NCBI RefSeq assembly: GCF_000003605.2
Contig: NW_003118930.1
Span: 158,938 to 181,710, forward strand
Reading direction: 5' to 3'
Length of the DNA stretch: 22,773 nucleotides
Origin: Saccoglossus kowalevskii
Taxonomy: Eukaryota; Hemichordata; Enteropneusta; Harrimaniidae
The translations under genes and the position numbers were made by a program. This document shows, piece by piece, positions 180-19,310 of the stretch (the first letter of the stretch is position 1; every line of letters begins with the position of its first letter). The notes beneath the pieces are model-generated. The model was not told where the DNA came from. It made no database searches and saw only the letters and a program-made list of their open reading frames with translations.

Positions 180-1909
180 TCTGTAAAGCCGCGAATAAGA
201 AATGTGTTGGATTTTACGATGCAGCTGAAAACTGCTTCTCACATGGTACAGAGGCCGGACCGCATCCAGGACCAGGTGAGTTCATTAATTATTCATCTAA
301 TAACTCCATAACAAACACTAAGCAGAAGAAGAATATAATTTTTAAAATGCTAAGCTAAAAATGTCATGATTTGTGTACAAAGTACATAATTCCATACAAG
401 CACTCGGGAATATTTCAAGTCATTCTCATCGAAATCTTTGCGGCCATTTGCATCTAAGGTCAATTGAAAGAAGTGGTGCTATATTAATCTGATTGGTTCT
501 CTTTGAAAGAGAAATAAACATCATACTCAATCTACGTTCTTACATATAATAATCCTTACCTAATTATCTCCTCTTCTCCTAAACTAGGGTTGCTTAATGG
601 CTGGTTCGACGGCTGCTTGGCATGGGCCGACACACCTTTCCGTAACTTAACAGTAGACTTCACCGAACCATATTTCGATGTCAGAGCGACTGAAGCACGG
701 TTTTATGTCGCCGAAGGTAATCCAAAAAGCTTTGATCCCACAAATTTTAAAGATGCTAGCCTGGGTAAGTACAAATACATATGCGTGCAGACAGTAATAA
801 TTCTCAGTAATATGTTATTTTACATTATTATTATAATCATTGTTTATTTAAAATCATTATAATTATTATTAGGTATTCTCACTGCATGGGCTCATGAATA
901 TCGCTGCTTGCGAACTAGCCATCCAGGAATCTTCCACGATATGACGAGAGAGCACATCAAGATGGCGAGCACAAAAATGGAACTGCGTCGCATGATAGTT
1001 GCTGGTGAGGTGAGGCGATGTTGCATTTTATATATTACAAATATCACGCTTGTGTTCGTATTATGTAGATTTCTTAAATTTCCATCTTAGTAAACTCATC
1101 CATTTGACACGGTTATCAAATATTTGAATATACTAGTATGTTAACAATTTGTTGAATTCTTAGAACGATTTTGTTATTTGTTTTCAGGTCGATGCTGGTT
1201 TTGCCAATGAGGTTATAATGGACAGAATCAACGAGGCAGGTGGGCTTGAGAAGGTTGGAGATCCATTCGCGTGTGCATCAAATCCACTTACCGGAAAAAC
1301 CACTATGCATGTTATGACTCGTAAAGGAAGTGACGTACCAGAATGGTGGAACAAAGCATTCCATACTATCAAAGAAAATGGAAAATATTACAAATTGTGC
1401 CGTGATATTCAACAAAGAACTGGTAAGAATCAAAACATTCACACGTTCTCTTCAACATTCAATGCAGAAAAAATAACAAAAGTCAATACAGAGTAATTAG
1501 CCTGTTGTCTCTAATATGACGTCTGTACTAATTTCAAAGCATCCGTAAATTGAAACTGCTAATTGACCATAAAAGCAAATGGACGCCGAGATCTCGTTGA
1601 GATCGAGTGAGTCGAAAGTTCGATTTGTTTTGGCCCTTCAATCATTGTTCAATTCTTTCTTGTCATTGTGTTCACTGTTCCAAAATGATATGGTTATATG
1701 ATCAGTTGAATGACACGATGACGGAACAAAGTTTAACAAATTTTTAGGGGCACAAGCAAGTCTCGCAACTCTTCACTCTCATCGAAATCTCGGCGGCCAT
1801 TCTTATTGTAGTATCACCATTCGTCAAAATTGATGAATTTGCAGCAGAAATGGCTAATGATGTTCTTGTGTTTTTTTTTTCAGGCCGGATACCAGGCTGC
1901 GTCGATTAG
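180..1909 (+). CDS. Secreted SBP_bac_3-like protein, copy 1 (5'-partial, last five coding exons)
   Basis: Exons read from splice sites and phase: 180-275, 588-764, 873-1009, 1188-1422, 1884-1909 (stop TAG 1907-1909). All introns are GT-AG (276-587, 765-872, 1010-1187, 1423-1883) and the phases join without a stop, giving about 222 residues. The visible part covers most of a family 3 solute-binding domain: L-NGWFDGCLAWADTPFR followed by VDFTEPY matches the bacterial 'G-x-D ... T-x-x-R ... VDFS-PY' signature. AGE then VDAG matches the 'G-R-VDAV' segment of the second lobe, and the end resembles the closing helix of that family. Bacterial relatives capture amino acids; by inference this is a secreted amino-acid-like ligand binder. 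The first exons, including the signal peptide expected from copy 2, lie before position 1. Eight cysteines are kept in common with copy 2. The related iGluR ligand-binding domain is an alternative, but no pore interrupts the two lobes here. Confidence 0.85.
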
Positions 1910-7550: not shown

Positions 7551-7604
7551 TTATATTATATTATATTATATTATATTATATTATATTATATTATATTATA
7601 TTAT
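7551..7604. repeat. (TTATA)n microsatellite
   Basis: About eleven uninterrupted copies of the 5-bp unit TTATA. Confidence 0.95.
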
Positions 7605-8771: not shown

Positions 8772-8817
8772 ATGAAAGGTCGTCTTACTATTTTGCTCCT
8801 TGCTGTCTCCCTTTGTG
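8772..8817 (+). CDS. Exon 1: signal peptide of copy 2
   Basis: Encodes MKGRLTILLLAVSLCG with the final Gly split (phase 1), then donor GTGAGT at 8818. Basic residues followed by the hydrophobic LTILLLAVSL make a classic secretory signal peptide; cleavage is likely just after Cys15/Gly16. An in-frame TAA at 8745 means the open frame cannot extend far upstream without another exon. Too short for simple ORF finding. Confidence 0.75.
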
Positions 8818-11800
8818 GTGAGTTCCTATAATATATGTGTGTTTTTCAAGATCTATACTATGTTACATAATTAGCATATATGTATGAGTGTCGGGATGAT
8901 ATTTCGTTATTATGATACAAATATTTCATAAAACCAGAATTTTAAGTTGAACAATAGCAGACCTGAAATACAAAATGGTATACACAACCTCCAAATCCTG
9001 AATATAGATGTGTAAAGGTTGCATATTCGGAAGTGAACAATTGTACTGTTTTTTTTAGGAGATGAAATGATTTGCTTTTCCAAATCAAATATGTGTTGAT
9101 TTTGTTTATAAACATATTGTTTGTAACGGTACCTGTCAATTTTTCTTTCAAAATGTTCATCTCGCTCAACCCCGCATCGCTAAAAGCGTTCTACTCATGT
9201 TATATATGTAGTGTGTATATGAGTGCATGTCCATCGGATATCCGAAGCTTTAAGGTGCGTCCGAATACGCGGTATGCGAATATATTTCTTCCAGTAAAAT
9301 TGTAAAAATAAAATTGTTTCTGATAGTCTAATGAAAATAAACATAACTTACAACATCTGGTTCGATGAACAAATTCATAATTTTAATTGAAAGAATTTCC
9401 ATGTATTGCCGACGACATTATTTTAAATATATCGGCTGCCATGTACTTTTATATGGGGTCGGCCACGTCAATACCCTTGAATCTATTTTTAGCGATGTAT
9501 CAACTCATGTTGGTGAAATGCTAATCTGCAACTATCATACAAAGGTTGCCATGATAAGTCAATAACTGTAACGATAAATCTCAGACAGCATCGTGAACTA
9601 TGCGACACAGAACTAGATATGTACGTTTCTGTGGTAAATGTATCATCTGCAAACCGTGCGTTTGTATGGTAGTTCGATGACAGAACAAGCTGTATGCAAA
9701 TCAATAACTTTTGTCTATCAAATTTTTGAAGCCACTTATCATCTTTACCTTTACATCTAACATTCAGGCCAATCAGAGAGGAGGTTTGTATATATGCTTT
9801 GTATATATGCATCGAAATAATTGTACGCTCAATATGAGTGGTTAACTGAAAACAAACGATAATCACACTGTGCGATATGTGACGAGTAACACCGAAATCA
9901 GCATATATGTATTATGAATAATTTATAACCCTAAATATTTGTAAACGGATTTACTCATTGCATGGATGTGTGCCCACTTAACTTACTGTTTCGCCGAATG
10001 CCTACTGTATTCGACCACCTTTCGATTTCAATAACACAAATTAAAAAATTATTTATTTTGTGTTTATATAATATAATTATAAATATAAACATACTTTTCC
10101 TGACTTCAGTATATTGCTATTTCAAAAGAAATCTCTGTTTTTGGTTATCCCATTCTAGGTGTACGATGCATGCCCAATCCATTGGCTATGGCCTTGTTTG
10201 GTCAAGGTGTAAGTATTATTTTCATTCATTTGGGTCAATTGAAAGTGTTTTTGCCATTTATATAGTTTCATCGTGAATTTAGAACGAAAGGTGACAGTTC
10301 AATTCCAACACGAAAATATATACTGTGTCAACGTGTTTACGCTATAATACTGAATTGTGTTTTAACAGGCTCAGCATAGCTCACATGATGGACATGGACA
10401 TGGAGACGGTTTGTTTGGTGGTCCTAGTGGGGGTCTTACTGATCTGCCCCCAATTATCAAGGCTGCTGTCGCTAGTAGACTCTCTGGCCAGTCTGGATAT
10501 GGCTCATTTGCTGGTGGAGCTGCTGGTGGAATAGAACTGCCATCAATGGAATGTGAGGATGGAACATACGAATGCGGTAGAAGCATGACTGAACAAGTCT
10601 TCGTCGGTGGAGATGGACGCCCACAGTTTCAAGGTGGACCAATGCGAAACATGATTGACAAAGCTCCCATCTTTTGTCATCCAGGTTCAGAAAATTGCGG
10701 TGTTCATGTTAATTACCATGTGTACCTGAACCCCAAACCCATGGGCGGTATATGGGAAAGAGAACTTGGTGAAGCCAAAGTTCTTAGAGCAAGACGAGGA
10801 CCACCTGTTGTTTGTGCTCCTGGGAGTGACTGTGGTGGGCGCTCACAGATTATTGTTCACAATCAAGATGCTAGCGAAATCAGAAGAGCGTCACAAGAGA
10901 GATCCTCTACATACACTTTTGTAATACACGGTGCCAGCGTTGAGACTTTGTACGTACCATTTATTTTACTATTCACTCTAAGCAGCATGTATCGTAGGTC
11001 AAATAAAGAACTTTAAGGGGCTTTTTCTATTTTAAGTAACTTGGCCAAATTGAATTTGAAAGTCACAGCGCTCGCGGGTTATTCAGATCAGCGCAGGTGG
11101 ATGCAACTCCGCCGTTTAGCGACACAGTTGTATGTATGCTTGTTTGATCAAGCGTGCTAGTTGGAATTCCATTGTAGAAATAGATGCTTGTACATTAAGT
11201 GAATTGACACGTTTGAATGGGATTCATTTAGTACATGATGGATCTTGCACCGTGTGCGTTTATACCGACGCATCTTCAATTGGCTATGGTGGCTATATTG
11301 TTAACCAAGAAGGTAATGAGTGTACGTGTGTGGGTAAGTGGTCCAAATCTGAACAAGTTAAGAGCTCAACCTGGAGGGAACTAGTGGTAGTTCATCGTAT
11401 GTTACTATGCAACAGCAAAAGCTTTTAAGGCTTGAACGTGCAGTGGTGCACAGATAACCAGAATGTGGTGAGGATTTTGAATGTGGGTAGTAGAACACCC
11501 GAGTTACAAGACGTGGCGTGACACATAATTGAATCATGCGAGAGTATAGATACCTCAATATACCCAAGATGGGTGCCTCATAGGCAGAATGTTATAGCCG
11601 ATAGGCTGAGTAAATATGTCGATTGCGACGATTGGAGTATCGCGTTTGATACTTTCCAGGAGATTGATGCCCTGTGGGGTCCGCATTCTGTGGACAGGTT
11701 TGCCTCTGACAGCAACAATAAATGTGCAGCGTTCAATTCTAGATGGAATTGTCCCAATACTGAGGCAATTGATGCCTTCTCCCAAAGCTGGGATGGGTAA

Positions 11801-14800
11801 AATAATTGGTTAGTTCCTCCCGCCAAAACTAGTTAACAAAGTTATCTCCAAGATGAGATGTGACCGAGCTAGAGGTACATTAATCATTCCTAAGTGGCGG
11901 TCGGCCCCATTTTAGCCGGTGGTATGCCTAACTCAGGGGAAATATGCAGAATGGGTTCTAGAAAGCAGAAAACTATCGCATGTAAATACAGTACCTGGTA
12001 CAAAAAAGCCGGAACGGCGTGTTTAATGACGAGCTCAGTTTCTATCTGGTAGCGTTACGCATTCGTTTTTGAATGTCCGGGACCAGAATTGCAAATTGTT
12101 AGAGTTATTAATGGAACATTTTTGGGGGTTTTCAGGTTTAAGTTTAGCGAAAGCCATTAAAGAGGCGGCAGGCAGTAGTTCGGCCAACCCAGAGCTGCAA
12201 AGACTTTCCACTAAGCTGCCTTATTATCTCGTTGGGTGGCGTAGCGAAAATACGATCAACAATTACTTCACGTAATTCAAGAAATGGGAACACTTTATTC
12301 TCAGCAAAGGGGAGTCGGCTTTGCCAGCCAACTCAGTTCACGTGGCTCTTTTTCTCACTCATTTGTTAGAATGTAAAGTGTCTTCATGAGTCTTCTCCAG
12401 TCACGTTTATGCTATCAAGTGGGCACATGTTACAGCGGGGTACGCGGATCCCACCATTCATTCTTTGTTAGTCTTTCGGAGACCGCTAAGCATTCTCATC
12501 ACAATCGTATTAAATCTAGGAAGGATCCTATATCCGCCGAAATGTTGAAATCGCTTTGTGTTAAATACTATTCATGTACAGATTTGTTAATTTTAAAAGA
12601 TTTAGCTATGATTTTGTTAAGTTTTTCAGGTTTTCTGAAGTTTGCTGAAGTCAGTTCTCTAGCCTGTCGCGATGTTACTATTCACGACAACCACATGTCA
12701 CTCTTCATTTCGCATAGTAAAACTGATCAGTACAGACAGGGTAACACTGTCCTTATTTCTAGCCTCGATTCAGTCGCATGCCCGGTAGACAGGTTAGGTA
12801 GATATATCGAAGCTGCATCTATCACACTCACGTCTTCAGATTATCTTGTCAGTTTCTCAAAACTTAGGTCTGTAGCTGCGCGCGCCCGTGCTTTTTTTTG
12901 TTATCTAAGTGGCCACACCTGGCATGACCTTACCTTATGTAAGTGTGTTGTATATTAGTATTATCGGATGTGGTGAGTCTAGTAAAGACATATTGTTAAA
13001 CGCATTTCGTAGTATAGCGGGTAACTATTGTCTGTTTGGGATGACAAACAGACGGGTATGGTATGTGGGGTCACATGACTAGGGGTATGTAAAGGCAAGA
13101 CAGGCTGTGGAATGCCACTCTAGGCCAGTCACGCCACTGTGCAGTTTCTTCAGTTTTGTTTTTTTTAAATTGATTTATTTATTAAGTTATTCATTTTTTT
13201 CATTTGTTTATTGATTTTTGTATCACACTGGGTGACGCCCGCCACTTTCCCCTGGGCACGCTCGACAGTGCGGCGGGTACAGGTTTCCAGGGATTTTTTA
13301 TCCAATTTCCTATAGGAAAGGGTTTTTTATTCCTGGTTTTTCCTGGGCGGTCGGCGTGCCAGTAACGGGGTGCGATTTGTTCAGTTATGTTTAATGTGTT
13401 CTTTGATCTGTTCAATGTAAGTGGCATTTACCAAGCACAACATTCGATGGTGTTAAGCAGCCAATGTCGACCTTAAGTTTTTCGAATGCTAATTTAAGTT
13501 ATATTTTTTTTCCAATTAGTTTTTTGAATTGAATAGAATTGTTTGTTTTTGTATTTTCAATCACTTCACTTGAGCGCTACAAAACCATGTAACAGCAGCC
13601 GTTTTTTTAGTCGGCTTATCAGAGTATTGGTTTAAATAAACGGTTTCGCCGGACTGACTGCACATACGTGGCCACACCTGGCATGACCTGACCTTACCTT
13701 ATGTAAGTGTGTTGTATATAAGTATTATCGGATGTGGTGAGTCTATTAAAGACTTATTTGTCTGTAGTACAATACATCCAGTCATACATTTTGTTTTAGA
13801 AATTCTACTTCCGCAGCGGGCTAAACACACCTGGGAAGTTCGTACTACTGAAAGTTTGCTCGAATGGTTACATTAGTAAAATAGTCGTCATATAAATTCG
13901 CTTAATGGTGTGGTGTGTATCTCAGTCTCAGTGAAAAATACTACACATCTAATATGGATTTCTTCGTAGAACAGGGAATCCCGCCAGCGATTTAGTGACT
14001 TGATCATATCGAAAGATGCTGAAAACCCAATCTCAATGAAGCTACGGAACTGCTCGGCGAAGCTTGGTAATTGGCAAGGCGGGTATCTTGCGAACACCAT
14101 AGCAGTTGTATTTATCAAGTTACAAATAAAACTTAACATGCCAAAGGTTTCAGACAACATTTTTCCAGACAATTTAACTTATAGCAAATATTTTCTATAG
14201 AGTTGATGTTGATATTCAGTTATTGTTTTTCATCAGTGACCCGAATGAAGGTAAAATTGTTATGGGATTCCACAAGGATTTGGTCCAAGAAGGTAAAATG
14301 TTCTTAAAACACTATAGATAATAAAAAAAAAACAGTTCCAGTACATATTTCCATTTCCACGACTACCGCCCTCTAGCGACGACATAAATCTGTGACGTCA
14401 AATTGACATTAATGAACGAATACAGTGAATTTTTTTCTTTTTTTTTTGGTTTAACTATCTTTTATTCCATACAATAGAAATACAGTGAAATTTAATGTAT
14501 TTGATTCTGTAGTATTTTGACCTATAGTCAAATATTTTGTATAATGGACGGGTGACGATTGCAACAATGTCGACGATGTAAACGGCCTTTCTTTCATCAC
14601 GTAAGCATTGTCCCTAGCGGGCGTCATTTATAAAAACGGTAATTATTCTCGTCTCTTAAAATCAGATTTATAATTAGTAAAATAAGTACTTCCATAGATT
14701 AGTTTGCCACTTTTTTCATCATTGTATTGCACAACATGTTGGTCTCATTTTAATATTAACAGTATGTAAAGCGGCGAATAAGAAATGTGTTGGATTTTAC

Positions 14801-16865
14801 GATGCAGCTGAAAACTGCTTCTCACATGGTACAGAGGCCGGACCGCATCCAGGACCAGGTGAGTTCATTATTTATTCAACTAAAAACTCCATAAACTCCC
14901 ACTGAGCAGTAGAAGAATACATTTTTTGAAATTCTGAGCTGAAAATGTCATGAGTTGTGTACGAAGTACTCAGGAATATATACAATCACTCTCATGGACA
15001 TCCTTGCTCCGATTTGCATCTATGGTCAATTGAAAGAGGTGTTGTTATATTGAACTTATTGGCCCTTTTTTAAGTAGAAATAAACATCATATTCAATCTA
15101 TGTTCCTACAGAGTGGAATCATCTTTTACTTTAACTACCCCTTCTTCTCGTAAACTAGGGTTGCTTAATGGCTGGTTCGACGGCTGCTTGGCATGGGCAG
15201 ACTCACCTTTCCGTCTCTTAACAGTAGACTTCACCGAACCATATTTGGATGTCAGAGCGTCTGAAGCACGGTTTTATGTTGCTGAAGGTAACCCAAATGG
15301 CTTTGATCCAGTGAATATTCAAGATGCTACCCTGGGTAAGTAAAAAACCACATGCGTACAGACAGTAATAAAGTAATAATTCTAAGTAATATGGTATTTT
15401 ACATCATTATTATAATCATTGTTTATTTACAATCATTATAATTATTATTAGGCATCCTCACTGCATGGGCTCATAATTTCGTCTGCCTGCGAAGTAGCAA
15501 TCCAGACCAATTCCACGATATGACGAGAGATAAAATCAAGATGGCGAGCACAAAAATGGAACTGCGTCGCATGATAGTTGCTGGTGAGGTGAGAGATGTT
15601 GCATTTTATATATTAGAGATATCACGCTTGTGTTCGTTCTATGTAGATTTCTTAAATTTTCATCTTAGTGAACCCATCCATTGGACACGGTTATCAAATA
15701 TTTGAATATACTAGTAAGTTAACAACTTGTTGAATTCTTAGAACGATTTTGTTATTTGTTTTCAGGTCGATGCTGGTTTCGCCAATGAGTTTATAATGGA
15801 CAGAATCAACGAGGCCGGTGGGCTTGAGAAGGTAGGAGATCCATTGGCGTGTGCAACACACCCACTTACTGGAGAAACCCATATGCATGTTATGACTCGT
15901 AAAGGAAGTGACGTACCGGAATGGTGGAACAAAGCATTCCATACTATCAAAGAAAGTGGCAAATATTACAAATTGTGCCGTGATCTTCAACAAACAACTG
16001 GTAAGACTTCTCTCATTAATGTTACAACATACCACGTTATTGATATGCATGCGCAGCTGTGCAGGACTTTGATTTGTCACAACAAACATCATGCAACAAT
16101 ATTGTAGTATACTTTATTTCATAATTTTTTTTCATTGGATTATGATTTATCATAAACTGAAAATGTTTCTTTTTAAGCACATACAACAATGTTAGTTTTA
16201 TGAACAATGAGAAACATTACTACACATATGCAGTGATTGTTGTAGATACCACAAACAAATCAATGCACATAAGTGTTAGACAAATATTTCGTCGAACGAA
16301 TATTTAGTTATGTGCCACAAGGACAATGCATTAAGTTCATGATAAATCAGAATCAGATGTATTCATTTACATGTAGAATCAAAACATACATATTTTACGT
16401 ACAATACATAAATGATAGGTCGGTACAAAGAAACTATTAACCTGTTGTCAGTATGTTACCATGGTTTTCACATTTCATAAAATGAATGTCGTATAATGAC
16501 GTCTGTACTAATTTCAAAACCAGCGTACATGGAAACTGCTAATTGACTTTGAAGGCAAATGGCCGCCAAGACCTCGTTGTGAACGAAAGAGTCACATGAT
16601 TTTTTGTCCTTCAAACATTGTTCTGTTCTTTCTTGTCACTGCGTTCTCTGTTCCAAATAACATGGTTATATGGGTCAGTTGAACAGTGGACACGATGACG
16701 AAAGAAAATGAAACAATATTTTAGGGGCAAAAGTAAATTTCGTACTGTCTCACTTTTAGCAACACCTCGGCGGCCATTCTTATTTTAGTACCACCATTCA
16801 TCAATTGATGAACTTGAAGCTTCTGTTTTTTATTTCCAGATCGGACATTAAGCTGCATCGATTAG
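8772..16865 (+). CDS. Secreted Cys-module + SBP_bac_3-like protein, copy 2 (complete, nine coding exons)
   Basis: Inferred coding exons: 8772-8817, 10159-10208, 10369-10949, 14237-14292, 14763-14858, 15159-15335, 15452-15588, 15766-16000, 16840-16865 (stop 16863-16865). They total 1404 nt, 467 residues, with every phase consistent. Order: signal peptide 1 to about 18; His/Gly-rich linker about 35-46; Gly-rich segment about 49-90; three C-x5/6-C-G modules (Cys 94/101, 135/142, 181/187); SBP domain about 213-467. In the SBP domain, TFVIHG resembles the first strand, GKIVMGFHKDL the 'GkivGFdvDL' motif, SPFR (Arg295) the carboxylate-binding Arg, and VDAG (Asp383) the amino-group-binding Asp of bacterial amino-acid receptors. 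No transmembrane channel separates the lobes. The start has A at -3 and an in-frame stop at 8745-8747. Intron 3 (3.3 kb) holds a DIRS relic. The exon 3 to exon 4 join is the least certain step; two separate genes remain possible. Confidence 0.75.
8818..10158 (+). other. Intron 1 of copy 2
   Basis: Begins GTGAGT and ends TTCTAG. It is AT-rich with short chance frames only. I see no repeat or nested gene in it. Confidence 0.6.
10159..10208 (+). CDS. Exon 2 of copy 2 (50 nt)
   Basis: Lies between acceptor TTCTAG and consensus donor GTAAGT (10209). Entering in phase 1 and leaving in phase 0, it encodes GVRCMPNPLAMALFGQG, joining exon 1 and exon 3 in frame. It supplies Cys19 and the stretch after the predicted signal cleavage. 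The assignment rests on splice signals and phase only, with no homology. Confidence 0.6.
10369..10949 (+). CDS. Exon 3: His/Gly linker and triple two-cysteine module
   Basis: Acceptor TTTTAACAG precedes 10369 and donor GTACGT lies at 10950 (phase 2). Residues 33-226 begin with a linker containing HDGHGHGDG and a Gly/Ala-rich segment. Three related modules follow: C-EDGTYE-CG, C-HPGSEN-CG and C-APGSD-CG, each followed about 5-9 residues on by a beta-like stretch (EQVFV, NYHVYL, QIIVH). The exon ends with TYTFVIHGASVET, which I read as the first beta strand of the SBP domain. I do not recognise the cysteine modules. The open frame continues past the donor to a stop at 11014-11016, so a shorter read-through form is conceivable. 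Confidence 0.7.
11002..11007 (+). promoter_or_regulatory. Possible intronic poly(A) signal
   Basis: AATAAA sits just inside intron 3 of copy 2, nine bases before the stop codon (11014-11016) of the frame that reads through the exon 3 donor. Use of it would give a 247-residue protein with the cysteine modules and a hydrophobic tail (LYVPFILLFTL) but no SBP domain. Confidence 0.25.
12080..12910 (+). pseudogene. Tyrosine recombinase relic of the DIRS-like element
   Basis: After a linker with ELQRLSTKLPYYL, the frame gives SENTINNYF then FKKWEHFI, typical of the core-binding domain of DIRS recombinases. YAIKWAH and ADPTIHSL lie in a shifted frame near 12410-12465. The catalytic domain begins LLSFSGFLKFAEVSSLACRDV (about 12614-12676). 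Here the usual catalytic Arg of GFLRxxE is Lys. The frame runs into the terminal repeat at 12909 before the expected H-x-x-R and Tyr motifs, so the C-terminal half is gone and the enzyme cannot work. Confidence 0.7.
12909..12989 (+). repeat. Split direct repeat, left copy (candidate B1)
   Basis: GTGGCCACACCTGGCATGAC through GTAAAGACATATTGT is repeated at 13669. The left copy lacks a 5-bp insertion (CTGAC-like) present in the right copy. Confidence 0.8.
12990..13668 (+). other. Non-coding 3' region of the DIRS-like element
   Basis: Lies between the two direct repeats. In A1-ORFs-B1-A2-B2 elements this would be A2. The A1 partner is missing because the 5' end is lost, so the assignment cannot be checked here. 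It includes T-rich tracts around 13155-13200 and no open frame of note. Confidence 0.45.
13669..13755 (+). repeat. Split direct repeat, right copy (candidate B2)
   Basis: Matches 12909-12989 with a 5-bp indel and a few substitutions. It is preceded by AATAAA at 13635-13640, a possible element poly(A) signal. It likely marks the 3' end of the DIRS-like element. Confidence 0.8.
13761..14236 (+). other. Rest of intron 3 of copy 2
   Basis: Non-coding sequence between the element's 3' repeat and the acceptor CATCAG. The short frames here overlap on both strands and resemble nothing known. Confidence 0.5.
14237..14292 (+). CDS. Exon 4: N-terminal SBP motif of copy 2
   Basis: Acceptor CATCAG and donor GGTAAAAT bound a 56-nt exon encoding DPNEGKIVMGFHKDLVQE. 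This matches the 'd-GkivGFdvDLa' motif that follows the first strand in family 3 solute-binding proteins. It needs phase 2 entry, which donor GTACGT at 10950 supplies, and leaves in phase 1, which exon 5 accepts. The equivalent exon of copy 1 would lie before the window. Confidence 0.75.
14393..14400. promoter_or_regulatory. Full CRE-like palindrome in intron 4
   Basis: TGACGTCA is a perfect CREB/ATF site. About 15 bp upstream, CGCCCTCTAGCG (14367-14378) partly resembles a reversed CTCF core. Both could be chance. Confidence 0.2.
14763..16865 (+). CDS. Exons 5-9: main body of the SBP domain, copy 2
   Basis: Five exons that pair one for one with copy 1, with identical lengths (96, 177, 137, 235, 26 nt) and phases. 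Substitutions by exon, counted by hand: none in exon 5, about 10 of 58 residues in exon 6, 9 of 46 in exon 7, 9 of 78 in exon 8, and 5 of 8 in the terminal exon. Cys 246, 253, 263, 286, 347, 410, 452 and 465 are all kept in copy 1. The short tail after the final helix ends in a conserved Cys-x-Asp-stop. Confidence 0.85.
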
Positions 16866-17000
16866 ACGCCGATATTGTAATAAACATTATTACAAATGCG
16901 CATCTTTAACACAGCAGTCCAGGTTCATTAAATTCTTAAATCATAATTAAGCTTGTGTGCAATTCCAATATTAAATAAAAGATTGTAATCATATAATTGC
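16866..17000 (+). terminator. 3' UTR and poly(A) signal of copy 2
   Basis: AATAAA at 16974-16979 about 110 nt after the stop, in the same context (AATAAAAGATTGT) as copy 1. Confidence 0.6.
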
Positions 17001-18480: not shown

Positions 18481-19310
18481 CAAAGACACTATCTATGAAT
18501 CTAATCCTTGGTCAATGCTGGTACTGTTTAGTATAAAACAGGAACAAAGACACTATCTATGAATCTAATCCTTGGTCAATGCTGGTACTGTTTAGTATAA
18601 AACATGAACAAAGACACTATCTATGAATCTAATCCTTGGTCAATGCTGGTACTGTTTAGTATAAAACATGAACAAAGACACTATCTATGAATCTAATCCT
18701 TGGTCAATGCTGGTACTGTTTAGTATAAAACATGAACAAAGACACTATCTATGAATCTAATCCTTGGTCAATGCTGGTATTGTTTAGTATAAAGCATGAA
18801 CAAAGACACTATCTATGAATCTAATCCTTGGTCAATGCTGGTACTGTTTAGTATAAAACATGAACACAGACACTATCTATGAACCTAATCCTTGGCCAAT
18901 GCTGGTACTGTTTAGTATAAAACAGGAACAAAGACACTATCTATTAATCTAATCCTTGGTCAATGCTGGTACTGTTTAGTATAAAACAGGAACAAAGACA
19001 CTATCTATGAATCTAATCCTTGGTCAATGCTGGTACTGTTTAGTATAAAACATGAACAAAGACACTATCTATGAATCTAATCCTTGGTCAATGCTGGTAC
19101 TGTTTAGTATAAAACATGAACACAGACACTATCTATGAATCTAATCCTTGGTCAATGCTGGTACTGTTTAGTATAAAACATGAACAAAGACACTATCTAT
19201 GAATCTAATCCTTGGTCAATGCTGGCTCAGTTTAGTATAAAGCATGAACAAAGACATTATCTATGGATCTAATCCTTGGCCAATGCTGGCATTGTTTAGT
19301 ATAAAAATGG
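18481..19310. repeat. 64-bp minisatellite, 13 copies
   Basis: Unit begins CAAAGACACTATCTATGAAT and repeats exactly every 64 bp (18481, 18545 ... 19249). Most units differ by 0-3 bases; the last is the most diverged. Common variable sites are CATGAA/CAGGAA, TACTG/TATTG and GGTCAAT/GGCCAAT. High homogeneity implies recent expansion or gene conversion. It has no open frame and no spacer structure, so it is not a CRISPR. Confidence 0.98.

Follow-up and report, generated by a model that had tools for sequence, protein, structure and literature searches.

A gene family in Saccoglossus kowalevskii encoding predicted secreted, pore-free SBP_bac_3-like proteins that resemble bacterial HisJ/LAO-type binding proteins

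Among animal proteins, ionotropic glutamate receptors are the best-known carriers of the bacterial amino-acid-binding fold; in them, a pore is located between the two lobes. A gene of the hemichordate Saccoglossus kowalevskii raises the question whether the same fold may also serve as a secreted protein with no channel, and which bacterial proteins such a protein would resemble most. The gene, here called copy 2, occupies positions 8772-16865 of the forward strand in the analyzed stretch of 22,773 nucleotides (the window; assembly GCF_000003605.2, contig NW_003118930.1, positions 158,938-181,710), which also contains part of a second, similar gene, copy 1. Our preferred reading, to which we assign a probability of roughly 0.55, is that this gene codes for a secreted and soluble Venus-flytrap protein of the HisJ/LAO kind, which is braced by disulphides and binds carboxylate ligands.

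Copy 2 consists of nine exons spliced at GT-AG borders, with an open frame of 467 codons followed by a stop codon at 16865 (Table 1), as had been proposed in the original prediction, made from the sequence of this locus. The N-terminus is hydrophobic according to hydropathy (no dedicated signal-peptide predictor was used), and exon 3 lies inside a stop-free run of 216 codons, the longest run in 300 shuffles of the window being 177. Exon 3 encodes three short Cys pairs, and the signal peptide of the original prediction is likely. No membrane segment is observed in copy 2, as the highest 19-residue hydropathy beyond residue 25 is 0.99, in agreement with the expected lack of a channel. Moreover, exon 6 continues uninterrupted across the site where the receptors carry their pore.

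Both lobes of the SBP_bac_3 domain are predicted to be present and contiguous in copy 2. Of the two Pfam profiles named in the original prediction, PF00497 (SBP_bac_3) matches copy 1 with 28.3 bits (E 1.6e-6), above the cut-off of 26.4, and copy 2 with 25.4 bits (E 1.3e-5), one bit under it, and neither copy gives a reported match to PF10613 at E<=1. As a control, the ligand-binding domain of GluA2 matches PF10613 at 1.5e-46 and PF00497 at 1.9e-19. Lobe-1 pieces of three paralogues from the same genome (see below) all exceed the PF00497 cut-off, with 33.4-39.7 bits (E 4.8e-10, 1.9e-9 and 4.4e-8), and reach PF10613 just at E 0.08-0.2. A tblastn search with the domain over plasmids (72,556 records, E limit 10), the only collection in which a possible transfer donor was sought, yields 92 matching records with the best E of 5e-5, 37 of them spanning at least 80% of the domain; among the matches listed, 18 of 20 are annotated as transporter substrate-binding proteins, and two are unannotated.

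The profile-profile alignment with eight of the plasmid proteins covers domain columns 20-243 of 257 (probability 98.6); the first strand, encoded by exon 3, falls outside most of these domain alignments. The scores against bacterial profiles are 47.3 and 40.5 bits, compared to 5.5 for the best of 2000 shuffles. Among ten bacterial proteins, twelve triples were picked at random (one triple came up twice); they match with probabilities 96.3-97.6 (E 1.9e-9 to 3.1e-12), and a triple of glutamate receptors in the same comparison with probability 0.6 (E 0.098). The PF00497 matches, the extent of the alignment and the course of exon 6 over the lobe boundary agree with the earlier description of a complete, contiguous, channel-free domain. 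Scans of viral and bacterial-genome collections confirmed no relatives; they depend on short exact peptide matches and therefore say little about distant kin. Nothing was found in PHROGs at E<=0.1 or in Rfam at gathering scores, and the N-region by itself has no match in the phage collection. For the bacterial proteins closest to the window domain, the genes are situated between amidase-family and arginine-deiminase-family genes, with no permease gene beside them within the short stretch examined.

Within this superfamily, the domain by its sequence resembles bacterial HisJ/LAO-type binders more than it does the receptors, with GlnH in between. The family profile finds HisJ-like proteins at E 3e-22, GlnH-like ones at 4.9e-14 and glutamate receptors at 8.3e-6, the size of the sets (ten, four and three rows, respectively) favouring the HisJ-like one. 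In pairwise comparisons, expressed as standard deviations above shuffles, the scores are 12.4-18.3 for the eight plasmid proteins, 7.2 for HisJ, 6.8 for the nopaline-binding protein, 1.6-4.4 for four GlnH-like proteins and -1.0 to 0.8 for three receptors; these values are biased, since the plasmid proteins were picked by similarity to the window, HisJ and the nopaline-binding protein via a profile containing them, and the GlnH-like rows by similarity to GluA2. Among solved sequences, copy 2 alone matches four at E<=10: three are binding proteins for amino acids (0.34-0.48), and the fourth, a calcitonin receptor (1.4), is a chance match. The two-copy profile has 12 distinct weak matches among solved structures (E 0.03-1), with HisJ on top; six are transporter domains labelled as glutamine ATP-binding cassette (ABC), PAAT-family or permease subunits, three are dehydratase-related, and glutamate receptors are absent. 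The NCBIfam model TIGR01096 (Lys/Arg/Orn-binding) matches copy 1 at E 7e-4 with 19.2 bits, far under its cut-off of 256.35, and the HisJ library model gives 11.6-11.9 bits (cut-off 459; E 0.15 for copy 2). The cysteine pair of the C38/C45 type is found in all ten HisJ-like rows (eight of them selected for their likeness to the window) and in none of the four GlnH-like and three receptor rows. We call the family HisJ-like because of these scores and the cysteine pair; the sequence thus favours bacterial binders over the receptors with which the protein had originally been compared, and GlnH, then suggested for the structural comparison, scores poorer than HisJ/LAO.

As in HisJ/LAO proteins (TIGR01096), two contiguous lobes, the GF..DL, VC....C and DF..PY motifs, the C38/C45 pair and Arg77 can be recognized in the window protein. 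Unlike them, it is encoded by a spliced animal gene with an added N-region, has a pocket that is altered in large part, is only 20-26% identical to the eight plasmid proteins, and has about 11 additional residues inserted behind C263 and four further family cysteines. No ABC transporter gene is seen in the window (the wider genome was not searched for one). GlnH-type proteins share the fold and the Pfam family with the window protein, but match it more weakly, lack the C38/C45 pair (4/4) and group with receptors in trees. The ligand-binding domain of ionotropic receptors belongs to the same superfamily and likewise has an Arg where the carboxylate binds; the window protein differs from it in lacking both the pore and a PF10613 match, and the three compared receptors lack the HisJ-type pair. 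Transferrins, secreted animal iron carriers, are similar in secretion and in their related two-lobed fold, and different in ligand and sequence family.

The copy 2 protein is not alone in its genome. The search covered the 572-Mb assembly containing the window and yielded, at E<=0.01, 36 matches to the 467-residue protein (10 in the window and 26 elsewhere), and 40 matches to a paralogue piece, both window copies included. Matches to exon 6 mark six genes on one strand of contig C812, five on one strand of C3981, two in the window, two far along the window's own contig, and one on each of C2441, C687 and C885; exons 5 and 8 mark one extra gene on C46, and exon 5 alone perhaps one more on C1875, with a stop within the match. 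Hence, rather than a lone protein, we estimate a family of at least about 19-20 gene copies, whole or partial, with two tandem arrays accounting for 11 of them; this count is a lower bound, as the genome search scored best candidates only.

The family alignment was anchored on copy 2 and contains 16 paralogue loci after merging of duplicates; its flaws are a spurious exon-6 piece (L040), intron letters at some exon ends, and exon 7 being largely missing. Cysteines C246, C253, C263, C286, C410 and C452 are invariant across the family rows with data (12 to 17 rows), with C246/C253 in 12 of 12, which suits an extracellular protein. Exon 6 is under strong purifying selection in five paralogues, the ratio of non-synonymous to synonymous substitution rates (dN/dS) being 0.06-0.21 in all ten pairs, with some dS values near saturation. 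Copy 1 corresponds to copy 2 over exons 5-9, in frame and with matching splice sites (223 residues, 85% identity of the protein). At the DNA level the introns are 75-94% identical and the exons 73-98%, all five being gap-free, and dN/dS for the two copies is 0.53 (21.3 substitutions per 148.9 synonymous and 41.7 per 520.1 non-synonymous sites).

In HisJ, Arg77 holds the carboxylate of the ligand and Asp161 its amino group. Arg295 of copy 2 aligns with Arg77; 16 of 17 family rows retain it, and the one that does not is the spurious L040 piece. Tyr14 and Leu117 of HisJ align with Tyr214 and Leu338, where Tyr214 is in a poorly aligned stretch. The position of Asp161 is variable within the family, and five of the ten HisJ-like bacterial rows also have no Asp there. 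Several observations speak against the preferred reading. In the pocket, S69 of HisJ is replaced by A288, S70 is missing, S72 is replaced by A290, T120 by W341, T121 by A342, Q122 by H343, and D161 by N388; much of the HisJ pocket being altered, ligand binding may therefore be lost. For exon 8, dN/dS reaches 0.80 in one of the three pairs computed (0.22 and 0.20 in the others), and the structure models of single exons, with a predicted local distance difference test (pLDDT) of 35.0 and 53.5, are too poor for fold searches. The "amino-acid-binding" character ascribed to the protein thus claims too much: the carboxylate Arg stands, but the Ser/Thr cage has changed and the Asp has become Asn. Such a pocket would suit carboxylates that are not standard amino acids better than it would suit plain amino-acid binding.

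We infer that a signal peptide would export the protein, comprised of the Gly/Cys-rich N-region and a full SBP_bac_3 domain, and that additional disulphides would brace the domain outside the cell. The two lobes may then close on a small ligand with its carboxylate on Arg295, as in bacterial binding proteins. Given the lack of a pore and of a known ABC transporter, we propose that the protein carries, buffers or presents its ligand outside the cell.

The altered pocket would also suit a protein of the extracellular matrix, shell, mucus or egg coat, in which the fold is a stable disulphide-braced block needing no ligand. The His/Gly-rich N-region with six Cys in short pairs ahead of the domain and the conservation of the family cysteines are also consistent with this explanation, but retention of the carboxylate Arg speaks against it, and a term search of the main texts of two Lottia shell proteome papers finds no "SBP", solute, periplasm, glutamate-receptor or amino acid-binding wording (the word "bacterial" occurs in them once, inside a reference); we regard such a structural role as possible, at about one chance in four. 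Far less probable is a secreted enzyme derived from the binding fold, as happened in bacteria with cyclohexadienyl dehydratase: the enzyme itself and two reconstructed relatives of it appear (E 0.89-1) in the set of 12 weak matches to solved structures, but HisJ and other binding proteins score higher, so that we give this explanation hardly any weight.

An ionotropic glutamate receptor that has lost its pore would be the most familiar source of the fold, and the shared superfamily and the ability of the family profile to find receptors are in its favour. In the unrooted tree with the two window copies, HisJ-like and window rows are split from GlnH-like rows and receptors with support 99/99, and the window rows stand among the HisJ-like ones; for this smaller set the clade of window and receptors is rejected (p value of the approximately unbiased test, p-AU, 0.012), while that of window, GlnH-like rows and receptors is not (p 0.204). 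After the addition of nine paralogues, the family forms one clade (100/100) with a long stem, and the larger tree, also unrooted, falls into three groups: the family, GlnH with the receptors (joined at 99/96), and the HisJ-like rows, which are on one side of a weak branch (76/38). For the larger set the clade of the family and receptors is not rejected (p-AU 0.147). As the trees are unrooted, they only demonstrate that the rows nearest to the receptors are GlnH-like and not those of the family, whose exact place they leave unfixed. Receptor ancestry is further opposed by the preference of both window copies and paralogues for PF00497 over PF10613, by the missing HisJ-type Cys pair in receptors and GlnH-like rows, and by the solved-structure matches, all 12 of which are bacterial-type binding proteins or their kin. 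Finally, a Pfam search of the genome marks 11 places, and of eight receptor-like loci examined there, receptor queries match all, while the window proteins match none at E 0.01. Based on these matches and on the profile and pairwise scores, the pore-less receptor was rejected and is considered very improbable. Loci L013-L020 are glutamate-receptor ligand-binding exons, L016 and L017 being GluN1-like (75-80% identity over 55 residues) and L013-L015 and L020 less similar to the three receptors compared.

The reading of copy 2 as a secreted binder also depends on whether exons 1-3 and 4-9 belong to the same gene. Exon 3 ends in phase 2 with STYTFVI, likely the first strand of the domain, and a similar stretch, R[VI]Y[TS]F, is present upstream of exon 4 in five of the seven paralogue loci having exon 4 and upstream sequence (four were found by a scan limited to phase-2 donors, one by the motif). 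With a first-strand profile of the paralogues, the real donor ranks 4th of 394, all scores being at most 2.5 bits. Exon 3 has the best summed score of 141 open segments, narrowly (125 vs 120), and is the best one for one of five paralogue exons; its similarity to the first-strand exon of L045 is reached by one of 2000 shuffles, and to the other four by 80-247 of 2000. A further first-strand-like stretch (L042/L045) was rejected, as it is situated between exons 4 and 5 of that paralogue and hence is a chance likeness.

The N-terminal part of exon 3 matches the N-region of L036 (0 of 2000 shuffles), and the best match of the L035 N-region is at a different place in exon 3 (29 of 2000). For each of the three paralogues with upstream sequence read (L036, L035 and L030), a 52-base exon was found that ends in phase 1 and likely encodes a signal peptide; the three exons have similar starts (MSRFVLLTLVCLAL, MNRFSVLALICLFA and MARIALVTLFCLVC, respectively). 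Behind this exon, L036 and L035 have a common coding N-region, where no Pfam match above the cut-off was found (one at E 0.044); the aligned pieces of it lack the three Cys pairs of exon 3, and the signal peptide of the window protein is not similar to those of L036 and L035 above shuffles. In the N-regions of L055/L036 and L056/L035, the signal peptide is followed by repeats of a short P[IL]LRA-like motif.

The same data have to be weighed against two separate genes, one consisting of exons 1-3, perhaps continuing to a stop at 11016, and the other, with the SBP_bac_3 domain, starting from exon 4 with an unseen first exon. The observations unfavourable to the join are the weak donor at 10949, fitting five of nine consensus bases and, among 394 possible donors joined to exon 4, ranking 328th and 106th by two bacterial profiles; the three other donors outscoring it even with the paralogue profile; the retroelement remnant between exons 3 and 4; the possibility for exon 3 to stay open up to 11016, giving a separate protein of 247 residues with a hydrophobic tail (hydropathy 1.67); and the signal-peptide rule, which produces about two chance candidates per 6.3 kb of shuffled sequence. 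Since L036 and L030 hold other candidates too, only agreement among the paralogues supports their signal-peptide exons. The paralogues' first strands upstream of exon 4, the rank of the donor with their profile, the top summed score of exon 3 with its L045 match, and the match to the L036 N-region lend the join moderate support, and we consider a single gene of exons 1-9 highly probable and two genes unlikely. The read-through at 10950-11016, with AATAAA at 11002, could also represent an alternative short protein.

Table 1. Features of the window and their coordinates.
Feature	Position	Strand	Description
Copy 1, exons 5-9	180-275, 588-764, 873-1009, 1188-1422, 1884-1909	+	5' part beyond the window
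Copy 2, exon 1	8772-8817	+	start codon and likely signal peptide MKGRLTILLLAVSLC...; 46 bases, ends in phase 1
Copy 2, exon 2	10159-10208	+	part of the spliced open frame
Copy 2, exon 3	10369-10949	+	His/Gly-rich stretch, three short Cys pairs (C94/C101, C135/C142, C181/C187), furin-like RARR site (residues 172-175)
Intron 3, retroelement remains	11017-13780	+	part of intron 3; weak Pfam matches and a direct repeat; outside the protein
Intron 3, direct repeat	12906-12994 and 13665-13758		90% identical
Copy 2, exon 4	14237-14292	+	EGKIVMGFHKDLVQE, predicted start of lobe 1; matches the bacterial GFDIDL motif and paralogue exon 4
Copy 2, exon 5	14763-14858	+	VCKAANKKC with HisJ-type cysteine pair C246/C253; also C263
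Copy 2, exon 6	15159-15335	+	predicted end of lobe 1 with C286 and Arg295, runs into lobe 2, no channel insert
Copy 2, exon 7	15452-15588	+	lobe 2 (predicted)
Copy 2, exon 8	15766-16000	+	predicted last part of lobe 2, then back to lobe 1; C410, C452
Copy 2, exon 9	16840-16865	+	short tail and stop; stop position same in copy 1
AATAAA signal	16974-16979	+	sequence setting equals that of AATAAA at 2041 behind copy 1
Additional AATAAA	16879		33 AATAAA in the whole window
TTATA microsatellite	7551-7604		10.8 perfect copies
Tandem repeat	18481-19306		64-base unit, 12.9 copies, 96% matches

The remains in intron 3 are taken for a DIRS/Ngaro-like retroelement, its name and outer limits being inferred; its Pfam matches, RT_RNaseH_2 with 21.3 bits (cut-off 29.8) and Dam with 17.4 bits (cut-off 28.1), are below the cut-offs.

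The SBP_bac_3 domain family itself is well known. An open-access literature search yielded, among the matches listed, no paper on secreted, pore-free SBP_bac_3 proteins of animals, and such proteins may well carry automatic labels in databases. Regarding the origin of the family, transfer from bacteria, as opposed to old inheritance, is a proposal. SBP_bac_3 genes have been reported to be transferred from bacteria and archaea into anaerobic fungi (PMC11291939), a precedent for the domain entering eukaryotes; the hosts there are fungal, and the passage concerned describes no animal case. Tentatively, and with the odds somewhat against it, an animal lineage may have gained a HisJ/LAO-type protein from bacteria, independently of the glutamate receptors, and expanded it into about 20 secreted carboxylate binders with varied pockets. 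If so, introns, a signal peptide and extra disulphides would have been added to the bacterial protein, yielding a soluble counterpart to the ionotropic receptors, possibly used in chemosensing, nutrient handling or defence.

The gene family described here may thus represent secreted binders of small molecules that are little known so far. A conserved, expanded, secreted and pore-free family nearer to another kind of bacterial binder would constitute a second animal use of the fold, and it supplies concrete genes for finding the ligand, the tissue and the route of arrival.

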